From NCBI GenBank assembly GCA_002839095.1, contig PGXL01000001.1:186001-250000 (forward strand): a stretch of DNA of 64,000 bases. Direction: 5' to 3'. The translations under genes and the position numbers were made by a program. The DNA comes from Tenericutes bacterium HGW-Tenericutes-2 (GTDB taxonomy: Bacteria > Bacillota_I > Bacilli_A > Acholeplasmatales > Acholeplasmataceae). The stretch's first letter is position 1, and every line of letters starts with the position of its first letter. Below the pieces are notes generated by a model, which had not been told where the DNA came from, did not search any database, and saw nothing but the letters and a program-made list of their open reading frames with translations. Of the stretch, positions 8,665 through 61,949 are shown in pieces.

Positions 8665-8845
8665 AGACAAAAAAGGACTTTTTGCCCGTCTCAACCCCAG
8701 AAGATGACTAACTTTGATTCTTTGGTAGGTCTCCCGGCTTAACATCATCCTAATTTGCACCTTCCCGCTTTCGCAGTGGCTCTCGCATTTCGTCCGTTTC
8801 ACGGTTGCTGGGACAGCTCAAGAATTTAACTTGATTCCCTGTTAT
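8665..8845 (-). promoter_or_regulatory. Cobalamin (AdoCbl) riboswitch
   Basis: The minus-strand RNA has the core GAGCCACUGCGAAAGCGGGAAGG followed by a spacer and the B12 box AAGCCGGGAGACCUACC (8724-8741). These are the most conserved parts of the class. With the adjacent terminator it should lower expression of the uptake genes when cobalamin is plentiful. Confidence 0.95.
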
Positions 8846-8848
8846 GTA

Positions 8849-8877
8849 TTTATACACCAAATCATCTATTCAGTTAA
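8849..8877 (-). promoter_or_regulatory. Promoter of the cobalamin uptake operon
   Basis: TTAACT (8872-8877), 17-nt spacer, TATAAA (8849-8854) on the minus strand, directly upstream of the riboswitch. Confidence 0.6.
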
Positions 8878-11838: not shown

Positions 11839-13851
11839 TTATTTTCCTCTTTTCTTGTAGTCTTCAATAGATTTCTTGATTTGTTCTTTATTGGATAAAT
11901 AAGGGGTTGTAACATAGGAATTGTTATCAAGCTCGTTATATTCCTTAACAGTTTCTAAAGCGTTAGAATTTGTTGCCCAAGCTCTTCTTGATACACCAGC
12001 CATGACATCATAAAGCATTGCTGACTTGAGTATTTCATCGACTCGCTTCGAACCGTCTAGTACCATTCCATATCCACCATTGATTGCTTTACCGATGCCT
12101 ACTCCACCACCATTATGAAGTGCAACAAGACTCATTCCTCTAGATGCATTTCCTAGGGCAACATGAGTAGCCATTTCTGCCATCACATTGGAACCATCCT
12201 TAATGTTTGAGGTTTCTCTAAATGGTGAGTCAGTTCCACCTGTATCATGATGATCTCTACCAAGCATGATTGGACCAACTATTTTATTTCTTACCATCTC
12301 ATTGAATTTTAAAGCGATTTTCAATCTTCCGTAAGCATCCTGATAAAGAATTCTTGCTTGTGTTCCAACGACTAGTTTGTTTTCTTTAGCATTGCGAATC
12401 CATTCATAATTATCAAAATCCTGGAATCTTCTATTTTTGTCAATCATATCCATAGCTGCTTGATCGGTAAGCTCTAAATCTTTAGGATTGCCAGATAAAC
12501 AAACCCAACGGAATGGACCATATCCATAGTCAAATAAAACTGGACCCATAATGTCTTCAACATAGGATGGATAAATAAATCCATCCAAATCATTTTCTTT
12601 ATTTCTACAAACCTCTTTCACTCCAGCATCAAAAACAGCCTTTAAAAAACTGTTCCCGTAATCAAAAAAGTAAGTCCCTTGGTTAACTAGCTTTCCTATC
12701 ACTTGATAGTGTTTTTTTAGACTTTCATTGACTTTAGTGATAAATGCTTGTTTATCATTTTTTAATAGTTCTGTTCTTTCTTCAAAGGTTAATCCGCTTG
12801 GACAGTACCCTCCATCATATGCCGCATGGCATGATGTCTGATCTGATAATAAATCGATTTTAATTTTATTTTGTTCTGCATATTCTAAAAGGTCCACGAT
12901 GTTTCCATGGAATGCAATTGCGATAGATTTAAACTGATCTATATATTTTTTAGCATGTGAAAAGGCGTCACTAGGCGTTTTAGCAATATAGGATATCCAG
13001 CCTTGATTGTATCTGGTTTCGATGCGTGATAAATCAACTTCTGCTATAACTCCAACACCACCAGCTATCTCAATTGCCTTACCCTGAGCACCACTCATAC
13101 CACCTAAGCCAGATGAAACAAAGAGTTTACCCTTAAGATTATCCTTAGGATCTATACCTAGCTTCATTCTTCCAGCGTTAAGCAAAGTGGAATAGGTTCC
13201 ATGAACAATACCCTGTGGTCCGATATACATCCAACCACCTGCAGTCATTTGTCCATAGTTCGCTACACCTAATGCTGCAGCGCGATTAAAGCCTTCTTGA
13301 TTATCATATAAGCCAACCATTAAACCATTCGTTATAATGACTCTTGGTGAGGTCGGACTAGATAGGAATAACCCTAAGGGATGACCAGAAAGTATGACCA
13401 AGGTTTGATCCTCATTCATGATTTCTAGATATCTTTTCACAAGTAAATACTGCATCCAGTTTTGGAAAACTTGACCTGTTTCACCGTAGGTTACAAGCTC
13501 ATATGGATAGAGTGCAACATCAAAGTCAAGGTTGTTATCAATCATGACCTGAAAGGCTTTTCCTTCAATTGTTTCACCAAAATATGTGTCTATAGGTTTT
13601 CCAGAAATTTTAGTTTTCGGTCTAAATCGATATCCATAAATTCTTCCTCTAGTCATTAATTCTTCTGTAAATTCTGGAATTAAAGTCTCATGCCAATCAC
13701 TTGGTATATATCTAAGCGCATTTAAAATCGCTTGTTCAATTTCATTTTCAGTTAAAATTAACTCTCTTTTTGGAGCTCTTCTAATTTTCTTATCAAAGAC
13801 TGGATACTCTGGTAAATCTTTTAATATCTCTTTTAAATTAACTTCAATCAC
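11839..13851 (-). CDS. hutU: Urocanate hydratase
   Basis: NAD-dependent conversion of urocanate to imidazolonepropionate. At 670 residues it belongs to the longer form of the family; the common bacterial form is about 555. Typical segments are the GGWMYIGPQGIVHGT and SSGLGGMSGAQGKA NAD-binding region and GRDHHDTGGTDSPFRET near residue 555. The start is a GTG that shares its G with the hutH stop (TAGTG). Confidence 0.97.
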   Translation of the reverse strand: MIEVNLKEILKDLPEYPVFDKKIRRAPKRELILTENEIEQAILNALRYIPSDWHETLIPEFTEELMTRGRIYGYRFRPKTKISGKPIDTYFGETIEGKAFQVMIDNNLDFDVALYPYELVTYGETGQVFQNWMQYLLVKRYLEIMNEDQTLVILSGHPLGLFLSSPTSPRVIITNGLMVGLYDNQEGFNRAAALGVANYGQMTAGGWMYIGPQGIVHGTYSTLLNAGRMKLGIDPKDNLKGKLFVSSGLGGMSGAQGKAIEIAGGVGVIAEVDLSRIETRYNQGWISYIAKTPSDAFSHAKKYIDQFKSIAIAFHGNIVDLLEYAEQNKIKIDLLSDQTSCHAAYDGGYCPSGLTFEERTELLKNDKQAFITKVNESLKKHYQVIGKLVNQGTYFFDYGNSFLKAVFDAGVKEVCRNKENDLDGFIYPSYVEDIMGPVLFDYGYGPFRWVCLSGNPKDLELTDQAAMDMIDKNRRFQDFDNYEWIRNAKENKLVVGTQARILYQDAYGRLKIALKFNEMVRNKIVGPIMLGRDHHDTGGTDSPFRETSNIKDGSNVMAEMATHVALGNASRGMSLVALHNGGGVGIGKAINGGYGMVLDGSKRVDEILKSAMLYDVMAGVSRRAWATNSNALETVKEYNELDNNSYVTTPYLSNKEQIKKSIEDYKKRGK

Positions 13852-15371
13852 TACTTATCCTCCCCTTCAAAAATCATTTGATAGAATGCTTCACTTGATA
13901 TGATTTCTTCTATCTGATGTAGGTATGGAAACATCACTTCATCATGCTCAATAAATGGAATGTTTTTTCTAATGTATTCATAGGCTTTTTTAGTCTTTTC
14001 ACCAAGTTCTTTTTTCTCTCTAAAATCAATAGCTTGGCATGCAGTTAATAACTCCATTGCGACAACTTTTCTTGTATGATCAAATATTGTTTTCGCTTTT
14101 CTAGCAGAAATAGAACCCATCGAAACATGGTCTTCTTGATTTGCAGATGAAGGGATTGAATCAACGGATGCGGGATGTGCTAATACTTTATTTTCTGATA
14201 CAAGAGATGCTGCTGTATATTGTACAATCATGAAGCCTGAATTAAGGCCAGAGTATTTCGCTAAAAACGGTGGAAGACCATTGGATAGGTGAGGATTCAC
14301 CATTCTTTCAATTCTTCTCTCGCTAATATTTGCAAGCTCTGCTATAGCAATTCCCATATAATCAAAGGATAAAGCGAGCGGTTGCCCATGGAAATTTCCT
14401 GCACTAATTGCTTTATTTTCGTCCATTAAGATAATTGGATTATCCGTTACAGCATTCATTTCTTTTTCTAGGATATTTAAAATATGCAAAAATGCATCAA
14501 GAGATGCTCCATGCACCTGAGGTGCACAGCGAATGCTATAAGCATCTTGAACTCTCTTCTCATTTTGTTTGGTCACATGCTTACTATTTTTTAATAGATT
14601 TAAAACCTCTTTAGCTACAATCATTTGTCCATCTTGATTTCTAAGCTGGTGAATCATTGGATGATATGCATCTGTTATGCCTTCTAGTGCTTCCATGGTG
14701 AGTGATAAAGAAAGATTCGCTATTTTTAGAAGTCTTAAAGCATCATATAATACAATGCCACCAATGGCACTCATTGCTTGAGTTCCATTGATTAAGGATA
14801 AGCCTTCCTTGGCGTATAAATGTGGTAAAGACTGGATATCTGCTCTTTTTAATGCTTTCTTGGTTTCTAACTTTTCTCCTAAATAGAAGACTTCTCCAAG
14901 TCCTATCAAAGGTAGACTCATATGAGAAAGTAAAGCTAAATCTCCACTCGCACCTAAGGATCCCTTTTCATAAACGACAGGAATTATATTCAAATTTAAA
15001 TATTCAACCATCTTGAGAATTGTTTCAAGTCGAATTCCGCTATACCCTTTGATGAGTGCATTGATTCTTAATGCCATCATCGCTCTTACTGTTTCTATAG
15101 GCAGCGGGTCACCAACTCCACAAGCATGACTCATTAAAAGATTGGATTGTAGAAGTGATAGTTGTTTCTTATCAATTCTAACATTAGCTAGATGACCAAA
15201 TCCGGTATTAATTCCATATACTGGTTCATCATGCATCGCAATATCTTTGACAAAAAGACTAGCTTTTTCAACCAGTTTTTGACTTTCTAAATCAATTTCA
15301 ATCTTTTCATGATCTCTTGCTATTTTCATTAATAAATCTAGAGTTAATTGATTCCCATTGAGTATGATCAT
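13851..15371 (-). CDS. hutH: Histidine ammonia-lyase
   Basis: Removes ammonia from L-histidine to give urocanate. The self-processed MIO cofactor comes from Ala-Ser-Gly at residues 141-143 in GSLGASGDLALLSHM, and the N-terminal YGINTGFG motif (about 52-59) is present. The 506-residue length is usual. It follows ptb by 29 nt without a terminator, so the hut genes are joined to the butyrate kinase genes in one operon. Confidence 0.98.
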   Translation of the reverse strand: MIILNGNQLTLDLLMKIARDHEKIEIDLESQKLVEKASLFVKDIAMHDEPVYGINTGFGHLANVRIDKKQLSLLQSNLLMSHACGVGDPLPIETVRAMMALRINALIKGYSGIRLETILKMVEYLNLNIIPVVYEKGSLGASGDLALLSHMSLPLIGLGEVFYLGEKLETKKALKRADIQSLPHLYAKEGLSLINGTQAMSAIGGIVLYDALRLLKIANLSLSLTMEALEGITDAYHPMIHQLRNQDGQMIVAKEVLNLLKNSKHVTKQNEKRVQDAYSIRCAPQVHGASLDAFLHILNILEKEMNAVTDNPIILMDENKAISAGNFHGQPLALSFDYMGIAIAELANISERRIERMVNPHLSNGLPPFLAKYSGLNSGFMIVQYTAASLVSENKVLAHPASVDSIPSSANQEDHVSMGSISARKAKTIFDHTRKVVAMELLTACQAIDFREKKELGEKTKKAYEYIRKNIPFIEHDEVMFPYLHQIEEIISSEAFYQMIFEGEDK

Positions 15372-15400
15372 GTTTTTCTCCTTGTAATATGTTTAAAAAG

Positions 15401-16306
15401 TTACAAAGCTTCAGCAACTAAAGCTGCTAAAGCTATGGAATAGAATTTACTTTCAGTTGAGTCTGCGCGAGATGTTAAAACAATTGGCTTTTTTGCTCCT
15501 GCGATAACAGAAGCACTTTTTGCATTTGCTAGAAACATCATGCTCTTATAAAAGATATTTCCTGATTCAATTTGAGGCATCAATAGAAAATCAACATCAC
15601 CTGCCATTGGATCTGTTATACCCTTATGAAGTGCTGCCTCTTTATTAATAGCGTTGTCCATTCCAAATGGTCCACCGATAGTGCATCCTTTTATACGATC
15701 ATTTTGATTTCTTAGGATTAATTCCTGTGCATCTAAGGTCGCTTGCATTTTAGGATTTACCTTTTCAACAGCTGCGAGACATCCTACCTTTGGATGCTTA
15801 ATTCCAATTGCATGTAAAATCCGAACACCATTTTCAATAATTTCTTGTTTGATATCTACATCTGGATCAATATTCATTGCACCATCACTCATCATAATAA
15901 TCTTATGGTAATTCGGAATTTCCATAATGCTGACATGAGATAATCTATTTGGCGTTCTTAAGCCATAATCACGATCCAATGCAGCTCTTAAAATAACTGA
16001 AGTATCGACAAAACCCTTCATCAAAATATCACCCTTGCCAGAGCTGATTAGCTTCACTGATTCCTCACAAGCCTTAACAGAATCTAGTTGATCGATAATC
16101 TGATAATCTGAGGTAACGATTTTAAGGTCTCTTAATATTTTTTCAATTTCTTTTTTATCTCCAATAAGAATTGGAGTGACGATATGAGCTTCCTTTGCCA
16201 TATGCACAGCCTCTAAAACATGAGCATCTGCTGCTGCAGCAACCACAATAACTTTTGGTTTCAAGAGCTGTGCGCGTTTCACAATATCATTCATTGTTCT
16301 AATCAT
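15401..16306 (-). CDS. ptb: Phosphate butyryltransferase
   Basis: Converts butyryl-CoA and phosphate to butyryl-phosphate. The 301-residue protein belongs to the Pta/Ptb family (VAAAADAHVLEAVHMA start, KGFVDTSVILRAAL in the middle, SGNIFYKSMMFLANA near the end). Size and pairing with a Buk-type kinase favour Ptb over Pta. The ATG at 16306 has AGGGGTGA 6 nt upstream; a TTG one codon earlier is less likely. It lies 12 nt after buk. Confidence 0.93.
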   Translation of the reverse strand: MIRTMNDIVKRAQLLKPKVIVVAAAADAHVLEAVHMAKEAHIVTPILIGDKKEIEKILRDLKIVTSDYQIIDQLDSVKACEESVKLISSGKGDILMKGFVDTSVILRAALDRDYGLRTPNRLSHVSIMEIPNYHKIIMMSDGAMNIDPDVDIKQEIIENGVRILHAIGIKHPKVGCLAAVEKVNPKMQATLDAQELILRNQNDRIKGCTIGGPFGMDNAINKEAALHKGITDPMAGDVDFLLMPQIESGNIFYKSMMFLANAKSASVIAGAKKPIVLTSRADSTESKFYSIALAALVAEAL

Positions 16307-16318
16307 CAAGATTCACCC

Positions 16319-17389
16319 CTATTTATATTCTTTTGCTACTTCTTCACCCTTAAGTACACGAAGACCACCTAAGGCTAAAGCTTCCATTTCATCTTCACCT
16401 GGATATACCATTAATGGTCCGATGAAATCAACTCTTTCTTTAATGTAATCCACCAAATAGGAATTATAGGCTAACCCACCTGTCAAGATGATTGCGTCCA
16501 CTTTTCCTTTTAATACCGTAGCTCCACTACCAATTTCCTTAGCAATTTGATAGCACATGACATCATAAATAAACTTTGCCTGCTGATCACCTTGCTTAAT
16601 TCTATCTTGGATTATTTGACCATCATTCGTTCCTAAATAAGCAACTAATCCACCTTGTCCATAATTTTTTCTTTGAATTTCCTTTAATGTGTATTTACCT
16701 GAAAAGACCATTTTATAAAGTGGTCCCATAGGCACTGAACCACTGCGCTCAGGTGACATTGGACCATCACCATCTAGTGCATTGTTCACATCAATAACTC
16801 TACCGTTGTGGTGAACACCAACACTAATTCCACCACCTAGATGAGCAATAATTAAGTTTAGTTCATGATATGGTTTCTTAAGATCTTTTGCAGCCTTGAG
16901 TGCAACTGCCTTTTGATTTAATGCGTGAAATAAACTATCTCTTTTTAATTCAGGCATTCCAGTAAATCTAGCAATATCATCCATCTCATCAACAGCGACT
17001 GGATCGACGATAAAGCTTGGTAGATTGTATTGATCAGCAATTGATTTAGCAAGCATACATCCTAAATTGGATGCATGCTCTCCTCTTGGAGCTTTTCTTA
17101 TATAGTCAAGCATTTCTTCATTTACTTGATATGTTCCACCAGGAATAGGTTTTAACATTCCACCTCTTCCAACTACAGCATTTAATGTAGATAAATCAAT
17201 TTTATCCTTTTCTATTTCATCCATAATGGCTTTCATTCTGAAATCATATTGATCAATGATACGATCAAACTTTAAAATCTCATCAGAATCATGCTTTACA
17301 CTTGCCTTAAATATACATTTCTCATCCTCATAGATTGCAAGCTTAGTCGATGTTGAGCCTGGATTGATTGCTAATATTTTATATGACAT
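16319..17389 (-). CDS. buk: Butyrate kinase
   Basis: Makes ATP from butyryl-phosphate. N-terminal ASKHA phosphate-binding motif ILAINPGSTSTKLAIY (residues 4-19), a central NAHLGGGISVG-like motif, and the HAxNQKA segment are typical for Buk (356 residues). The ATG at 17389 is chosen because GGAGGA lies 5 nt upstream; the longer version begins with TTG. It follows tnaA by 18 nt. The pair Ptb-Buk gives substrate-level ATP from the butyryl-CoA formed in lysine fermentation; a branched-chain acid kinase role is the main alternative. Confidence 0.93.
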   Translation of the reverse strand: MSYKILAINPGSTSTKLAIYEDEKCIFKASVKHDSDEILKFDRIIDQYDFRMKAIMDEIEKDKIDLSTLNAVVGRGGMLKPIPGGTYQVNEEMLDYIRKAPRGEHASNLGCMLAKSIADQYNLPSFIVDPVAVDEMDDIARFTGMPELKRDSLFHALNQKAVALKAAKDLKKPYHELNLIIAHLGGGISVGVHHNGRVIDVNNALDGDGPMSPERSGSVPMGPLYKMVFSGKYTLKEIQRKNYGQGGLVAYLGTNDGQIIQDRIKQGDQQAKFIYDVMCYQIAKEIGSGATVLKGKVDAIILTGGLAYNSYLVDYIKERVDFIGPLMVYPGEDEMEALALGGLRVLKGEEVAKEYK

Positions 17390-17407
17390 AAAGTCCTCCT
17401 TCAATTT

Positions 17408-18790
17408 TTATAACGGTTTGAATGTTGATGTAAAGTGTCTTAATATTGGTGATTCATATTGAAATTCATAGCCCTTGAGTTCATGACGATGCTCATAGAC
17501 ATGTATCACTGCTTCAGCAACAACATCTAAATGATCATATGTATAAAGTCTTCTTGGAATAGTTAATCTCATCAATTCCATTCTACTCTCTATATTTTTC
17601 TTTGTGTCTGGATCTCTACCTAAAAGTAGTGAACCTATTTCTACTGCTCTAACGCCTGCTTCAATATAAATCGCATTGGTTACTGCTAGTGCTGGAAACT
17701 GATCATATGGGATATGTGGAGCGAATGCCTTACAGTCAACAAAAACAGCATGACCACCAACAGGGTACTGTATTGGTACACCGGCATCTCTAAGCTTATC
17801 ACCTAAAAATCTCACCTGATCAATTCGATGTCTTAAATAGTTTTCATCTAAAGCTTCCATTAAGCCAACAGCTAATGCATCCATATCTCTACCATTCATT
17901 CCACCGTATGTTGGAAAACCTTCATAGGGTACAACGAAAGTTCTGCACTGATTATAGATGTGTTCATTATCCTTAATAGCAATAATTCCACCCATATTAA
18001 CTAAACCATCTTTTTTGGCACTCATTAAAAATGCATCAGCATAACTGAATGTTTCTCTAGCGATATCAATAATGTCTTTATCCTGATAGCCTTCTTCTCG
18101 TTCTTTAACAAAGAACGCATTTTCAGCATATCTAGCACCATCTATTATGGTCATAATACCATTTTTCTTAGCTATATCCCTAACCTTACGCATATTTTCC
18201 ATGCTAACTGGTTGTCCACCTGCTGAATTATTGGTAATCGTCATAATGATCCCAGCAATATTTTCCTTACCCTTTTCAGCGATAGCTTTCTCAAGCTTTT
18301 CAATACAAAAATTCCCCTTAAATGCATGATAATGATCAATATCGTAGCAATCCTCAACAACACAATCAATTGCTCTAGCTCCAGCGAGTTCGACGTGAGC
18401 TCTGGTTGTGTCAAAATGAAGATTTGAAATATAATACATGCCTTGATGTGTAACCAGTTGTGGTAAAAAGACCTTTTCTGCTCCTCGTCCTTGATGTACT
18501 GGTATGAAATACTTATAGCCTGTAATGTTTTTTACAACACCCTCTAGTCGATAAAAGCTTTTGCTGCCAGCGTATGCTTCATCGCCTGTCATCATCGCTG
18601 CCCATTGGTCTTGGCTCATCGCACCAGTACCTGAATCCGTCAGCAAATCAATATAAACATCCTCACTTCTCAAAGAAAAAGGGTTATACCCAGCATTTTT
18701 TAAGAGTTTGATGCGCTCTGTCTTCGTTGTGACACGAATTGGTTCAACCATTTTAATACGGTAAGGCTCTGCTACATATTTTCTTTTCAT
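17408..18790 (-). CDS. tnaA: Tryptophanase (tryptophan indole-lyase)
   Basis: PLP enzyme cleaving tryptophan to indole, pyruvate and ammonia. The 460-residue protein has DLLTDSGTGAMS, THQGRGAE-type HQGRGAE, and the PLP lysine in MSAKKDGLV. Tyrosine phenol-lyase is a close relative, but the segments TITNNSAGGQPVS and VEIGSLLLGRDP follow tryptophanase, and the arginine that TPL carries in its MERG motif is replaced (VEIG). First gene of the operon that continues through buk, ptb and the hut genes. No tnaC-like leader peptide was seen. Confidence 0.92.
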   Translation of the reverse strand: MKRKYVAEPYRIKMVEPIRVTTKTERIKLLKNAGYNPFSLRSEDVYIDLLTDSGTGAMSQDQWAAMMTGDEAYAGSKSFYRLEGVVKNITGYKYFIPVHQGRGAEKVFLPQLVTHQGMYYISNLHFDTTRAHVELAGARAIDCVVEDCYDIDHYHAFKGNFCIEKLEKAIAEKGKENIAGIIMTITNNSAGGQPVSMENMRKVRDIAKKNGIMTIIDGARYAENAFFVKEREEGYQDKDIIDIARETFSYADAFLMSAKKDGLVNMGGIIAIKDNEHIYNQCRTFVVPYEGFPTYGGMNGRDMDALAVGLMEALDENYLRHRIDQVRFLGDKLRDAGVPIQYPVGGHAVFVDCKAFAPHIPYDQFPALAVTNAIYIEAGVRAVEIGSLLLGRDPDTKKNIESRMELMRLTIPRRLYTYDHLDVVAEAVIHVYEHRHELKGYEFQYESPILRHFTSTFKPL

Positions 18791-18869: not shown

Positions 18870-18981
18870 ATATTTCACTTTTTTTTACATATAATGATGA
18901 AAATGAGCTGAAAACTTGTGTTTTTTAGCTGTTTTTTTGTCATCTTTGTATACTTTTGAATGAACAATCTTTATAAGTAAT

Positions 18982-19008
18982 AAAAAAACCAAATGAATGG
19001 TTTTTTTA
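18982..19008. terminator. Terminator after the stem-loop array
   Basis: AAAAAACCA/TGGTTTTTT hairpin with T runs on both strands. On the minus strand it ends the transcript that passes through the eight-unit array, and separates it from tnaA by about 190 nt. Confidence 0.8.
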
Positions 19009-19046
19009 TTTGAATCAAAGATGTCGAAGGAGGCTTAACTTTAATC

Positions 19047-19777
19047 ACCTTAGGGCTAACAATATTTCCCATTGTTCCTTTGGTTTTAAAGCGATCTTTC
19101 ATTTATGTCCATGTTTTCTACAGTTCTTAAGTTACCACCAGGACCTAGTCAATTTCTCTTGACTTCCAGTGCCATAATCTCAAGCTTTTTAGATCAACAT
19201 TATAATCAATTTCATTTTTTTATCTTTTAGTTTAATCTTTCCAATGCACGGTTTATTATTTTATCACCAAGACCTAGTTAATTTCCCTTAACTTCCTAGT
19301 GCCATAAAGCCAAACCGTGCATTTAAAGATCATTTTTTTCAAGTTATTATGATTACCAGAACCTAATCATTCTGCCATGATTTTCTAGTACCATCTAAAT
19401 ACTCGAATGCTTTCTTCTACAATTAATTCTTAAATCTTTTTTTAGAATCATTACCAAGACCTAGTTAATTTCTCTTAACTTCCTAGTACCATCATTCTTT
19501 TTAGGCTAACATTTTAAATCAACATCGCAATTGAACTTTTTAAACCACCAAGACCTAGCTAATTTCTCTTAACTTCCTAGTGCCGTTTTTTTTTCATTCA
19601 ATCCTTACTAACTTTTTATAGACTTTTGAATCATTACCAAGACCTAGTTAAATTTCCCTTAACTTCCTAGTACCATCATTCTTTTATCTATTTTCATACC
19701 ATTTTAAATCTAATCATTTTTTCTGAAATCGAATCAATCACCAGAACCTAATCAATTTCTCTTGATTTTCTAGTGCC
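19047..19777 (-). repeat. Eight-unit tandem array of a conserved structured-RNA-like element
   Basis: Eight copies of a 37-39 nt core lie at 19047-19084, 19137-19173, 19266-19303, 19355-19392, 19453-19490, 19547-19584, 19636-19674 and 19740-19777, spaced 89-129 nt apart. Read on the minus strand the core is GGYACUAGGA, then a stem AGUYAA/UURACU around a GRGAAA loop, then AGGUCYUGGU. Stem bases change in compensating pairs between copies (UUAA/UUAA, UCAA/UUGA, AAUCA/UGAUU; GGA/UCU, GGA/UCC, GAA/UUC). Each core sits inside its own outer stem of unrelated sequence, for example a perfect 12-bp stem at 19243-19254/19312-19323. The copy at 19047 is diverged. No open reading frame of note lies in it. 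I know no family that matches. Confidence 0.85.
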
Positions 19778-19838
19778 ATTTACTCAATAACTTCTTTAAT
19801 GATCTTCAATTCATTCAACCGTACTACAGAATCGTATG

Positions 19839-20300
19839 TTAATTATTATTTGTTTTGGATACTGGATAGAATGAGACACTAACATGTGAAGTAATGCTAA
19901 CTGATATTGTTCCTGTAGCATCTTCACCAACAAGCTTTAATCTATATTGACCTTCAACACAACTGAGTGTTGTAGTTTGATGAAGTTCAATCACTTGGTT
20001 ATATGGATCTACTAGAACTACCTTGAATTTTCCTTCAACCACATTTTCATACACTGTAATGGTTACTGTTTCTTCTCCAGAGAACACGAACAGTGTATCG
20101 ATTCCTTCAAATCCTTTAAATCTTAACATTGCGTTATTATCTTCAACTCCGCCATCGTATGTTTCGTATGTGATATCAGTTGTTGTTTGAACGATTTTGT
20201 TATAGTTGTTATAATCTTCTATGTTTTTATTGAGTGTGCATGCTGTTAAGATTGAGGCAATTGCAACAAGCGCGATTACGATTTTTAAATTTCTAGTCAT
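19839..20300 (-). CDS. Small lipoprotein, paralogue of the one at 61551
   Basis: A 153-residue lipoprotein with signal peptide and lipobox LTAC (Cys21). The rest is predicted beta-rich (EETVTITVYENVVEGKFKVVLVD). The same pattern, VTIT..EGxFKxVxV followed by an EG..R..G.A.G segment, recurs in the protein at 61551-61949, so the two are paralogues. AGGAGG lies 8 nt upstream of the ATG and a consensus promoter is at 20405. The stem-loop array follows in the same direction with no terminator between, so the array may be its 3' untranslated region. Function unknown. Confidence 0.8.
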   Translation of the reverse strand: MTRNLKIVIALVAIASILTACTLNKNIEDYNNYNKIVQTTTDITYETYDGGVEDNNAMLRFKGFEGIDTLFVFSGEETVTITVYENVVEGKFKVVLVDPYNQVIELHQTTTLSCVEGQYRLKLVGEDATGTISVSITSHVSVSFYPVSKTNNN

Positions 20301-20404
20301 TTTGTTTTCCTCCTCGGTTCACCCGAATTTTCTTTTCAATGATTTCGTTGTTGATTTTATTAATCTTTTTTGCTTTTTCATTGATATTTTTAATTTACAC
20401 CTTA

Positions 20405-20433
20405 ATTATATTCATTTATAAATCATTTGTCAA
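20405..20433 (-). promoter_or_regulatory. Strong promoter of the 19839 lipoprotein gene and probably the array
   Basis: TTGACA (20428-20433), 17-nt spacer, TATAAT (20405-20410) on the minus strand, with long A-rich tracts upstream on that strand that could act as an UP element. The 5' UTR is about 100 nt and holds a small TCGG/CCGA hairpin next to the ribosome site. Confidence 0.85.
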
Positions 20434-20598: not shown

Positions 20599-21684
20599 TC
20601 AGCTAAAACTGTCAAAAAATACGTTTTCTTGTTTAATATCGTGCTTGTTGAGCACCTTAATACATGCATTAATCATTCCTGGAGAACCACATAAATATGC
20701 CTCTGCCTCTGATAAATCACTCGTATTTCTATCAACAACATCTGTGATTAGTCCCACTTCACCTGTCCAATTATCATCAGGTAGTGGTTCTGAAAGTGCT
20801 GGAATGTATGTGAAATTCGGATATTCTTTAGCTAACTGTTCAAAATCTTCTGTATAATATAAATCTCTTTTTGACTTGGCACCAAAGAAATATCTAACTT
20901 TTCTTGGCATGCCTTGATCCTTCAAATAAGCAAGGATTGAACGAATAGGTGCTTTACCAGATCCACCAGCAATACAAACCATTTCACGTTCTGATTCTTC
21001 CTGGAGATAGAAATCACCATAAGGACCAGTTAAAATAATTTTATCGCCAACTTCTAATGCCTTATGAACAAATGTTGTAGCAAGTCCTTTTGGAACCTGT
21101 CTAATAATCATTTCAATGTGATTAGCTTCTTTCGGGTGAGATGCAATCGAATAAGCTCTAATGATATCAATACCAGGAACCTTAAGCTGTGCGTATTGTC
21201 CTGGTTTGAAATGCATTTCCTTTGGATCTAAAAGTTCAAAATCTACCAATTTGATATCGTAGGTTAAATCCTGAATCTTAGCTACTCTTGTTTTAAATTC
21301 CTTAGCGTTTAATAATTCTTTGGGTATTTCAATCTTCATGTTGTCTTTAACTTTAACTTGACAAGATAGACGAATACCATCTTCTCTTTCCTTTGGACTT
21401 AAGAAAGGTTCTTCGGTTGGTTTAATATCTCCACCACCTTCGATGAGTCTAAATTTACAAAATCCGCAAGTTGCTTTACCACCACACGCTGATGGAATAA
21501 ATATTTTGTGCTCTGATAGTGTATTGAGCACAGTGTCATCTCCTCTAACAGGAATGACCTTATCATCATTGATCATTAGCATTTTTTCTCCACCACCACC
21601 TAATGCTTTTTCAGCAAGGATAAGTAATACAGAAATAATAATCAAGATTCCTATTAATATGACTGGAACTAATAAATTCATCAT
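20599..21684 (-). CDS. nqrF: NqrF-type NADH dehydrogenase subunit (2Fe-2S and FAD)
   Basis: NADH-oxidising subunit of a Na+-translocating NQR-like complex. One N-terminal membrane helix (residues 4-24), a plant-type ferredoxin domain with Cys67, Cys73, Cys76 and Cys108, an FAD motif RAYSIAS (176-182) and an NAD-binding region GGSGKAPIRS follow in family order. At 361 residues it is shorter than the well-known Vibrio subunit (about 400). It closes an operon of rnfD, rnfG, rnfE and rnfA type genes; no nqrA is present. Two adjacent ATG starts exist (21684, 21681). Confidence 0.92.
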   Translation of the reverse strand: MMNLLVPVILIGILIIISVLLILAEKALGGGGEKMLMINDDKVIPVRGDDTVLNTLSEHKIFIPSACGGKATCGFCKFRLIEGGGDIKPTEEPFLSPKEREDGIRLSCQVKVKDNMKIEIPKELLNAKEFKTRVAKIQDLTYDIKLVDFELLDPKEMHFKPGQYAQLKVPGIDIIRAYSIASHPKEANHIEMIIRQVPKGLATTFVHKALEVGDKIILTGPYGDFYLQEESEREMVCIAGGSGKAPIRSILAYLKDQGMPRKVRYFFGAKSKRDLYYTEDFEQLAKEYPNFTYIPALSEPLPDDNWTGEVGLITDVVDRNTSDLSEAEAYLCGSPGMINACIKVLNKHDIKQENVFFDSFS

Positions 21685-21693
21685 ATACCTCCC

Positions 21694-22272
21694 TTAGATG
21701 TTTGCCAAGCCAGTAAATCCGATAAATGCTAGTGCAATGATTCCTAAGACGATAAAGACAATTGCCTTTCCTCTTAATCCTCTAGGTATGTCACTTTGTT
21801 TCGCCATTTTTTCACGAATACCAGCGACTAATACGATAGCAAGTAACCAACCAACAGATGATCCAAATGCAAATCCTGTGGTTTCAATAAAATTATAGTC
21901 TCTATTGACAAAGAATAACGAAATTGCTAAAACAACACAGTTTACAGTGATTAAAGGTAGGAATATACCAAATGCATTATATAGTTTTGGTATAAACTTT
22001 TCTAAAAACATTTCTAAAAACTGTACAGTAGCTGCAATCGTAATAATAAATACTAATAAGGATAAGTTGGTTGTACCAGTATTTTGAAGCAATTGATAAA
22101 TTGGCCAGTTGATCATTGCTGTAATGGTTACAACAAATACAACAGCAATTCCCATTCCCTTAGCATTCTTAATATTTGTTGAGATTGCAATCAATGGACA
22201 CATCCCCAAGATATACACCAAGGCGATGTTATGATTTAAGATTGAAGCGATGATGAGTTCTAATATATTCAT
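21694..22272 (-). CDS. rnfA: NqrE/RnfA membrane subunit
   Basis: A 192-residue integral membrane subunit with six predicted helices. Conserved cysteines expected to hold an intramembrane Fe centre together with the D/E partner are seen in LGMCPLIAIS (about residue 25) and ITVNCVVLA (about 110). Part of the ion-pumping core of the complex. Gap to rnfE is 10 nt. Confidence 0.92.
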   Translation of the reverse strand: MNILELIIASILNHNIALVYILGMCPLIAISTNIKNAKGMGIAVVFVVTITAMINWPIYQLLQNTGTTNLSLLVFIITIAATVQFLEMFLEKFIPKLYNAFGIFLPLITVNCVVLAISLFFVNRDYNFIETTGFAFGSSVGWLLAIVLVAGIREKMAKQSDIPRGLRGKAIVFIVLGIIALAFIGFTGLANI

Positions 22273-22282
22273 GATTTACCTC

Positions 22283-22909
22283 CTAGACCGCTTCTTCATA
22301 GAACTTGGACCATTCTCTAATTCCCCAGATGAGAAGCCCTAAGACGAAGAATCCGCCTGGAGCCATTGCCATCACTACCCAATTTGGCCAGGTAGCAGGC
22401 ATAATTCTGAAGTTAAGAATTGAACCAAATGCTAGAATTTCTCTAACTATTGAAACTGTGATTAACACAAGTGTATATCCCATACCACTTGCAAAACCAT
22501 CAACAAGTGTATATCTGACTGGATTTTTAGCTGCAAATGCTTCTGCTCTACCCATAACAATACAGTTTGTTATAATGAGACCCACGTACGCGCCTAACGC
22601 GGACGCGATGCTTGGGAAGAATGCCTGTAAGAACATTTGAACTAAAATAACGAATGTTGAAATGATAACCATATAGGTAACCATTCTTACCTTAGATGGA
22701 ATAAAGTTTCTAACTAATGATACGGTAGCAGAGGACGCCATAACAACAAATGTTACACCTAACCCCATCGCAATCGCATTTTCAACCTTATTGGTGACCG
22801 CAAGTGCAGAACAAATACCTAATACCGCTACAACAATAGGGTTATTTTTATGCAATCCATCTTTTAAAATGTTATACCATTTTGTATATTTCAATCGAAT
22901 GAGCTTCAT
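22283..22909 (-). CDS. rnfE: NqrD/RnfE membrane subunit
   Basis: A 208-residue integral membrane protein paralogous to the RnfA-type subunit. It carries the matching motifs LGICSALAVTNKVENAIAMG (about 31-50) and LIITNCIVMGRAEAFA (about 110-125), each with one conserved cysteine. Together with RnfA it forms the inverted pair at the heart of Rnf/NQR complexes. Confidence 0.93.
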   Translation of the reverse strand: MKLIRLKYTKWYNILKDGLHKNNPIVVAVLGICSALAVTNKVENAIAMGLGVTFVVMASSATVSLVRNFIPSKVRMVTYMVIISTFVILVQMFLQAFFPSIASALGAYVGLIITNCIVMGRAEAFAAKNPVRYTLVDGFASGMGYTLVLITVSIVREILAFGSILNFRIMPATWPNWVVMAMAPGGFFVLGLLIWGIREWSKFYEEAV

Positions 22910-22920
22910 GATAGCACCCC

Positions 22921-23505
22921 TTATTCGTTATAACTATTCCATGCATCTAAATACAAGGAGTAGTTATCATTTAATATGATTTCAAAGCTTGAAGAAGTTC
23001 TAGTTGCACCGGTAATTGCATCAACCTCGTTTACTTTGTTTGGTGCTGGATCTTTTCTTATTTCAATGGTTGGCACCATTTTAATACCAACAAAGTTAGC
23101 TAAATATAGTGGATCAGCGACAATACCACCCAATCCAGGTGTTTCTTCCTGCTGAAGAATAGTGATTTGTACAATTGTTTCAAAATCAGGAGCTAAAGTG
23201 ATCATTCCAATAATTGGACCCCAAACTCCACCACCTTCAAATACATATGAAACATTGCCTGATTCTTTATGAAGATAGAGTGTTAAACCTTCAGATTCGA
23301 TGATTTCAACTTCCTCTGCGAAGACATCGTGAATATTAGTGAATGTAAAGGAGACTGAGTTTGCATTTAAAACTGCAGATTTTAATAGTGCTTCTTCATT
23401 TGCAATGATGCGATCCTTTGTTAATAAATCCATACCGATGAGTAGTACGGATGTAATCGTTCCTAAAATAACAACGAATAAAATCATTTTTAGATTTTGT
23501 TTCAT
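22921..23505 (-). CDS. rnfG: NqrC/RnfG FMN-binding subunit
   Basis: A 194-residue subunit with one N-terminal membrane helix and an extracytoplasmic FMN-binding domain. The covalent flavin site S/TGATxTS is seen as ITGATRTSSS near residue 170, threonine being the expected attachment residue. Covalent attachment needs the flavin transferase ApbE, which is not in this window. The start overlaps the rnfD stop by 4 nt. Confidence 0.92.
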   Translation of the reverse strand: MKQNLKMILFVVILGTITSVLLIGMDLLTKDRIIANEEALLKSAVLNANSVSFTFTNIHDVFAEEVEIIESEGLTLYLHKESGNVSYVFEGGGVWGPIIGMITLAPDFETIVQITILQQEETPGLGGIVADPLYLANFVGIKMVPTIEIRKDPAPNKVNEVDAITGATRTSSSFEIILNDNYSLYLDAWNSYNE

Positions 23506-24437
23506 TGTGCTACCTCCTCTGAAGTAACAGCTTCCTTGACTGTCTTATTATCAATTAATGGCGATATTGCATTCATAATAATGATTGTAAAGGTGACACC
23601 TTCATGGAATGTGCCAAAGTTTCTAATAATAAATGTCAATAAGCCTAAACCTATACCATAAATAATTCTACCCTTTCCTGTAATCGGAGCGGTAACAGGG
23701 TCAACTGCGATAAAGAATGCCCCAAATAAAATACTTCCTAATAATAAGGATAATACTGGGTCTTTACCAATTGAATCTGGTGCGATTAGGAAAGCAGCTC
23801 CTGTAATCACGAAAAATGATCCTAAATATGATAGTGGAATTCTCCAGTCTGAAACCTTTAAAACCATTAATAGAATCCCAATGACGATGATACCGAGTCT
23901 AAATGTTTCACCTAGTGTACCAATTGTATTACCCATGAGTAAATCAAGCATGTTATAGTTTAATGGCAACCCACGATTGAAAAGATTTAAAGGAGTTGCA
24001 CCTGTAAATAAATCTGCTGTTTGAGGATCAATCCAAGCTGTTGCCATATGGGCAGGAAATGAGATTAAAACAAATAAATAACCGACTAAAGCAGGACTGA
24101 AGATGTATTTTCCACTCCCTCCGAAGATATTCTTACCAAAGAACACTCCAAAGAAAGCAGCGATACCTACTGTCCATAGAGGAATCGCTGGCGGCATTAA
24201 TAGCGCGATTAATAATGGCGTAACCATCCAACCATAATCTAACTCCTTTTTTCTAAACTTAGAAAAAAGTATCTCAACAATAAATGATACTGCGTAGGAT
24301 ACAGCTGTGATTGCTAATACATACCAACCAAAGATTACGGTTGCTGCAATGAGTAACACAGCTAGTGCTCCAGTGAAAATGTACGTGTTCTTCTTGTGTA
24401 AAGCGTCGTTTTGAACAGAAGTCATCGTTTCTGTCAT
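23502..24437 (-). CDS. rnfD: NqrB/RnfD membrane subunit
   Basis: First gene of the operon. A 311-residue protein with about nine to ten membrane helices and a covalent FMN motif FTGATPLNLF near residue 150. The length and the GATPL form are closer to RnfD than to the longer NqrB. No rnfC, rnfB or nqrA precedes it; the next gene upstream is the separately terminated ridA. Confidence 0.92.
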   Translation of the reverse strand: MTETMTSVQNDALHKKNTYIFTGALAVLLIAATVIFGWYVLAITAVSYAVSFIVEILFSKFRKKELDYGWMVTPLLIALLMPPAIPLWTVGIAAFFGVFFGKNIFGGSGKYIFSPALVGYLFVLISFPAHMATAWIDPQTADLFTGATPLNLFNRGLPLNYNMLDLLMGNTIGTLGETFRLGIIVIGILLMVLKVSDWRIPLSYLGSFFVITGAAFLIAPDSIGKDPVLSLLLGSILFGAFFIAVDPVTAPITGKGRIIYGIGLGLLTFIIRNFGTFHEGVTFTIIIMNAISPLIDNKTVKEAVTSEEVAQ

Positions 24438-61550: not shown

Positions 61551-61949
61551 TTATTCAATAATGATTTTATACCAACCTTTAGCTTGATCACCTATGATAA
61601 TAATTCTAACAGTTCCTTCGTTTGCATAATAATCAAATGTACCATTTTTTAATTCAGTGATCTCATCATTGGATTTGACCATGACAATTTTAAATCTACC
61701 TTCAGTAATTTCTCGATCAATAGTGATTGTTACAGAATGTCCAGAATAAATCGTATCTATTAAATCATTACCTGAAAAGCTTCGAAAAGAAACTTTATTT
61801 ATAGTTTCAATTGTACCAACATATACAGTTCGGTAATGGTTTGATGTGATGTAGCTCGCATCATCATACTTTTCATCCATATTTTTGATTGTACAGCTAT
61901 AAAGTAAAATAGATAAACCAATAATCATGATGATTAGATATTTTTTCAT
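61551..61949 (-). CDS. Small lipoprotein, paralogue of the one at 19839
   Basis: A 132-residue lipoprotein, lipobox LYSC (Cys19). The mature part shares SG..VTIT....EGxFKxVxV and a later EG..R..GDQAKG pattern with the lipoprotein at 19839-20300. The leader is odd: the GGGGGA ribosome site lies about 30 nt upstream, separated from the ATG by a perfect ATGGTTTG/CAAACCAT hairpin that would bring the two closer when folded. Function unknown. Confidence 0.78.
   Translation of the reverse strand: MKKYLIIMIIGLSILLYSCTIKNMDEKYDDASYITSNHYRTVYVGTIETINKVSFRSFSGNDLIDTIYSGHSVTITIDREITEGRFKIVMVKSNDEITELKNGTFDYYANEGTVRIIIIGDQAKGWYKIIIE

Follow-up and report, generated by a model that had tools for sequence, protein, structure and literature searches.

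The minus strand of the window, the 64,000-nt stretch of DNA analysed here, carries between positions 19040 and 19785 seven copies of one RNA hairpin and a divergent eighth. All eight share one fold and belong to one predicted transcription unit, in which the array follows the stop codon of a small lipoprotein gene and precedes a terminator-like hairpin, and a promoter stands before the gene. The genome (G000) measures 2.3 Mb. It is proposed, with a probability of roughly 0.4, that the array is a structured regulatory 3' UTR of the lipoprotein mRNA, acting as a multivalent partner-binding platform whose tail pairs with the ribosome-binding site of the same message. The features, in the order of the RNA, are the following.

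20405-20433, minus strand: sigma-70 type promoter TTGACA-17-TATAAT, 12/12 consensus positions, conserved in the six array species and in array-less G002
19839-20300, minus strand: small lipoprotein gene hosting the array, an ORF of 153 aa with lipobox LTAC; orthologues 42-79% identical
19730-19785, minus strand: hairpin unit 1, 5'-most in the RNA (R2 68.4 bits)
19626-19682, minus strand: hairpin unit 2 (R2 68.9 bits)
19537-19592, minus strand: hairpin unit 3 (R2 72.3 bits)
19443-19498, minus strand: hairpin unit 4 (R2 72.2 bits)
19345-19400, minus strand: hairpin unit 5 (R2 58.9 bits)
19256-19311, minus strand: hairpin unit 6 (R2 72.1 bits)
19243-19323, minus strand: unit 6 including its 12-bp outer stem (19243-19254 with 19312-19323), an exact inverted repeat; stem sequence kept in four species
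19127-19181, minus strand: hairpin unit 7 (R2 66.8 bits)
19040-19087, minus strand: terminal divergent unit (type B) with a 3-nt 3' bulge and a GGGAAA loop (R2 13.2 bits, E 0.006 in a 1.2-kb search; aligned in G019, G014 and G004)
19013-19033, minus strand: conserved 21-nt tail CCUCCUUCGACAUCUUUGAUU with the anti-Shine-Dalgarno motif CCUCCUU, 0-1 mismatch in G000, G019, G004 and G014
18979-19010, minus strand: terminator-like hairpin AAAAAAACCA/TGGTTTTTTT, a 13-bp perfect inverted repeat (I12) followed by a T run

Read 5' to 3' on the minus strand, each unit consists of a private outer helix, a 2-nt 5' bulge GG (AG in a few units), an 8-bp helix YACUAGGA/UCUUGGUR with a fixed U-G wobble, a 3-nt 3' bulge AGG, and a 6-bp helix closed by a GRGAAA loop, and hence carries two conserved asymmetric bulges eight pairs apart and a conserved loop. 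The seven window units scored 59-72 bits with a second model (R2) and the divergent eighth, built on the same plan, 13 bits; a conserved divergent unit also stands last, on the 3' side, in the arrays of three other species (G019, G014 and G004). In G003 and G005, the 3' bulge is usually 4 nt long (e.g. GUGG) and the A-U pair within the 8-bp helix is often A.A. Loops read GRGAAA or GNGAAA in most units. Conservation is no lower at unpaired positions than elsewhere in the unit, and three of them, bulge nucleotide G10 and loop nucleotides A28 and A30, are the same in each of 40 units. The fold of the full transcript leaves the loops and most AGG bulges unpaired. The array contains no ORF, all frames being stop-rich and the longest open stretch on the RNA strand measuring 31 codons. 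If the array were a passive 3' stabiliser, its strong hairpins would stop 3'-5' exonucleases and insulate the message of the lipoprotein, with no specific partner. Stable folding and the position between stop codon and terminator agree with this; simple blocking, however, needs none of the three invariant unpaired nucleotides, a terminator would make five to nine copies superfluous, and this explanation is regarded as unlikely.

The array is a structured RNA under selection, its structure backed by heavy covariation. Across 40 distinct units from six species, standard pairs filled 92.5% of 796 pair cells as compared to 78.4% after shuffling, two-sided changes were seen at 14 of 20 pairs, including all six outer pairs counted, and two-sided-change cells numbered 136 against 44.5 in shuffled alignments, with none of 500 shuffles reaching any of these figures, which derive from an alignment of related, tandemly duplicated units whose cells are not independent events. 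In a control that preserves this relatedness, sliding the partners by 1-3 columns reduced pairing to 21-46%. The hairpins retain pairing, unpaired bulges and loop while the helix letters change. Summing over the pair table for the 40 units gives about 100 G-U cells among the approximately 736 paired ones, including a U-G pair at columns 14/46 in 39 of the 40 units. Because the complementary strand would show A.C at these cells, the minus strand is the RNA, in agreement with the orientation that the sequence-only reading had deduced from G-U wobbles in the outer stems; minus-strand folds are also far stronger than plus-strand folds.

The tandem copies and a recent two-unit duplication of 171 bp in G004 would fit units that work as single-stranded DNA, as a mobile or DNA-level repeat (REP, MITE or recombination-site array), but G-U pairs in such number are possible only in RNA of one strand, and the single locus per genome and invariable gene context also speak against such an element, which we consider highly improbable. 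REP/BIME elements in 3' UTRs are, like the array, imperfect bulged hairpins after stop codons, although REPs are dispersed through the genome whereas the array occupies one locus in each genome; no dispersed copies were found, the next R1 match having an E value of 1.8.

The outer helices had been described, from the letters alone, as flanks that are unrelated between units yet pair within each unit. The pairing is well borne out: in the window, 5' flanks gave -10.7 kcal/mol with their own 3' flanks and -5.3 kcal/mol with those of other units (permutation P=0.002), and the corresponding values for the 40 units of six species were -9.5 and -5.5 kcal/mol (0/20,000 permutations). Some flank sequence does recur between units, GAAUGAU/AAUGAUUC being common to several. 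Outwards from the GG bulge, successive outer pairs are formed in roughly 98, 100, 80, 80, 60 and 68% of units, and the pair adjoining this bulge is U-A in 17, U-G in 14, C-G in 6 and A-U in 2. The 12-bp stem of unit 6 is perfect, as had been noted, and its outward continuation forms in the fold as UCUUU/AAAGA. Its strands, UCUUUgAAUGCACGG and CCGUGCAUUgaAAAGA, recur with hardly a change in the corresponding units of G000, G019, G014 and G004; the stem is therefore private among units, yet common between species, and its recurrence indicates that units hold their position in the array through speciation. The suggestion that the outer helix preserves structure and not sequence thus applies to the six pairs next to the core but not to this stem, which is conserved almost letter for letter across the four species. 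The shorter outer stems listed in the sequence-only reading are present, but several are not significant singly. In the shuffle comparison proposed there, performed by shuffling the flanks with dinucleotides and core kept and comparing fold energies, only three of the eight window units (19634, 19264 and 19135) reached p<0.05 on the minus strand. Jointly, the eight units were significant on this strand (Stouffer Z -6.3, or -3.7 without the best unit, that of the 12-bp stem), as compared to a plus-strand Z of -0.9 without the best unit.

Model searches identified the array in six species, all belonging to one Acholeplasmataceae genus, which includes Peloplasma aerotolerans. The copy number varies from 5 to 9, with 7+1 units in G000, nine plus the terminal unit in G019, seven plus terminal in G004, five plus terminal in G014, five in G003 and seven in G005. 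Under strict filters, searches of the order (160 genomes), the class (395) and the phylum (392) turned up no other array; among single weak matches in other taxa, those in G123 and G009 lie inside coding genes and were rejected. A pattern scan of genome contigs returned P. aerotolerans M4Ah (G005), Acholeplasmataceae, unplaced Tenericutes/Bacillota MAGs and two single unrelated matches, and the same type of scan found no unit in viral contigs. P. aerotolerans is a mud volcano isolate of GTDB cluster UBA2284 (PMC11122141). Single matches in L110 and L111, which overlap long open frames, and in L112, a simple AT-rich hairpin in which most of the core is missing, were taken as chance, no second unit being present in any of them. 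In six of six species the same lipoprotein gene immediately precedes the array, and no array follows the lipoprotein orthologues of G001, G002 and G011 or the lipoprotein paralogues. One distant paralogue (29% identity), at 61551-61949 on the minus strand of the window, is followed by an unrelated 182-aa ORF with no hairpin array behind it. In a tree of nqrF, the array species form two clades; the array may have had one origin. No Rfam family matched at the array at gathering or permissive thresholds, and no described case of such an array was found in the open-access literature. The array RNA looks like a new RNA family and, as to its kind, like a regulatory 3' UTR or sponge RNA in a new form. 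The sole Rfam match in the window is a cobalamin riboswitch at 8707-8876 on the minus strand (86.9 bits), unrelated to the array.

The lipoprotein has no Pfam or NCBIfam match, and its predicted fold is beta-rich (pLDDT 70) with only weak matches in the PDB; identity between the two species groups is only 49-52%. Given the conserved promoter before the gene, a consensus match with a predicted start, the lipoprotein gene and the array most likely form a single transcript of about 1.4 kb. A small conserved hairpin, UCGGU/ACCGA, stands directly before the lipoprotein Shine-Dalgarno sequence (20300-20345, minus strand, and orthologues), reads UUGG/CCAA in G003 and G005, and is also found in array-less G002. 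Five genes for NQR/RNF-type subunits, one of them nqrF-like, lie 5' of the lipoprotein gene. This five-gene cluster (20599-24437, minus strand) combines an nqrF equivalog with an rnfD-type D/B subunit, no NqrA gene was seen in the adjoining ORFs, and the cluster may be an NQR/RNF hybrid or a reduced NQR. Past the terminator lies a gene of the tryptophanase/tyrosine phenol-lyase family (17408-18790), of which a like-sized homologue is the downstream neighbour in three more species, another gene taking this place in G003 and G005. It is followed on its 3' side by genes for a HutH-type aromatic amino acid lyase, a phosphate acetyl/butyryltransferase and a butyrate/acetate kinase-like protein, the whole (13851-18790, minus strand) being an amino acid fermentation cluster.

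Several known systems share parts of this architecture. Like the array, CsrB/RsmZ-type RNAs carry many near-identical hairpins per transcript with conserved unpaired nucleotides, an arrangement suited to protein titration; unlike them, the array has no GGA in its apical loops, its AGGA sitting within the helix, is located in an mRNA 3' UTR, and has long private outer stems. The array is not a member of this type, there being no CsrA gene in the genus and no GGA in the loops. CsrA was accordingly rejected as a partner (PF02599 in 0 of 20 genus genomes, with positive controls in E. coli, B. subtilis and T. maritima), and a CsrB-like platform in this genus would need another binding protein. Type III toxin-antitoxin systems also contain tandem structured RNA repeats, but in the array unique linkers and private stems lie between the units, and no ToxN/CptN-like toxin gene was present directly downstream of the array among the next genes checked in the six array species. 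In an aptamer array, each unit would bind a small molecule or ion as part of a many-copy sensor, and the pair of asymmetric bulges with the loop does resemble a compact binding site. Against this, no expression platform lies near the 3' UTR that holds the array, and the array lacks an Rfam riboswitch match and exceeds in copy number the known tandem riboswitches, which have two or three copies; such a sensor is judged improbable. The high and variable copy number, together with conserved unpaired positions at two bulges and the loop, makes a protein partner more likely than a small molecule.

The 21-nt tail lies between the terminal unit and the terminator. An analogous AAUCCUCCU(U) occurs at the same place in G003 and G005, and CCUCCU(U) is found at or just before the terminator in six of six species. 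The terminator-like hairpin is not in the list from the terminator scan, which requires more G-C pairs. In L038 (8890-8970) and L039 (8925-9005), from G003/G005, the terminator hairpin encloses another bulged hairpin resembling the terminal unit. In whole-transcript folds, the tail is predicted to pair with the lipoprotein's own Shine-Dalgarno region in six of six species, and the altered Shine-Dalgarno sequences of G003 and G005 paired better with their own tails (-8.8/-9.4) than with G000-type tails (-5.8 to -7.2). This 5'-3' pairing is not specific evidence, as the Shine-Dalgarno sequences of other genes fit the tail equally well or better and G-rich stretches like the own one are few in this AT-rich mRNA; it is proximity that suggests the own site as the tail's partner. 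A precedent is the icaR mRNA of Staphylococcus aureus, in which a long 3' UTR carries a C-rich anti-Shine-Dalgarno motif able to pair with the message's own Shine-Dalgarno region (PMC3868564). The array mRNA likewise has such a motif in its own 3' UTR in six of six species, although here the pairing is predicted only and is not specific to the own site. The icaR mRNA is not known to carry a tandem hairpin array.

The tail could instead belong to a trans-acting RNA cut from the 3' UTR, whose CCUCCUU would pair with several mRNAs at their ribosome-binding sites while the hairpins protect or deliver the tail. Its near identity over about 21 nt in four species, its position adjoining the terminator and the good duplexes it forms with nqr Shine-Dalgarno regions within the same loci are consistent with this; extended-tail matches in the own genome, however, are near chance and almost all inside coding frames, and the repeated double-bulge core would be left unexplained. 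We regard a trans-acting role as quite unlikely.

The regulatory 3' UTR platform is favoured by the covariation, the constant gene context, the conserved promoter, the stop-rich frames, the unpaired loops and bulges and the anti-Shine-Dalgarno tail, to which may be added the tail/own-Shine-Dalgarno folds of six species and the better own-tail fit in G003 and G005. Held against it are the absence of CsrA from the genus, the equal or better fit of the tail to other Shine-Dalgarno sequences, the variation in copy number and the array-less orthologues in G001, G002 and G011. According to this proposal, the lipoprotein mRNA would carry the array as a structured 3' UTR of about 830 nt, all of whose units would be bound by one kind of partner. 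This would most likely be an RNA-binding protein that recognises the GG bulge, the helix with the fixed wobble and the GRGAAA loop. With its 5-9 copies the array would serve as a sponge or multivalent platform, and its private outer helices would insulate adjacent units against mispairing. The CCUCCUU tail would pair with this message's own Shine-Dalgarno region, at its 5' end, and occupancy or folding of the array would set lipoprotein output, as in the 5'-3' UTR pairing of icaR mRNA. That the array further represents an undescribed RNA class, a variable-number double-bulge hairpin array in an mRNA 3' UTR that titrates or counts a putative RNA-binding protein and is coupled through its anti-Shine-Dalgarno tail to translation of the same mRNA, is put forward tentatively and is rather doubtful.

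The array RNA is present in a cultured, free-living mollicute, which makes its partner and function testable. If the proposal is true, bacterial 3' UTR regulation would extend to multi-copy arrays, and the interest lies in an RNA that is unmatched in Rfam and backed by covariation.
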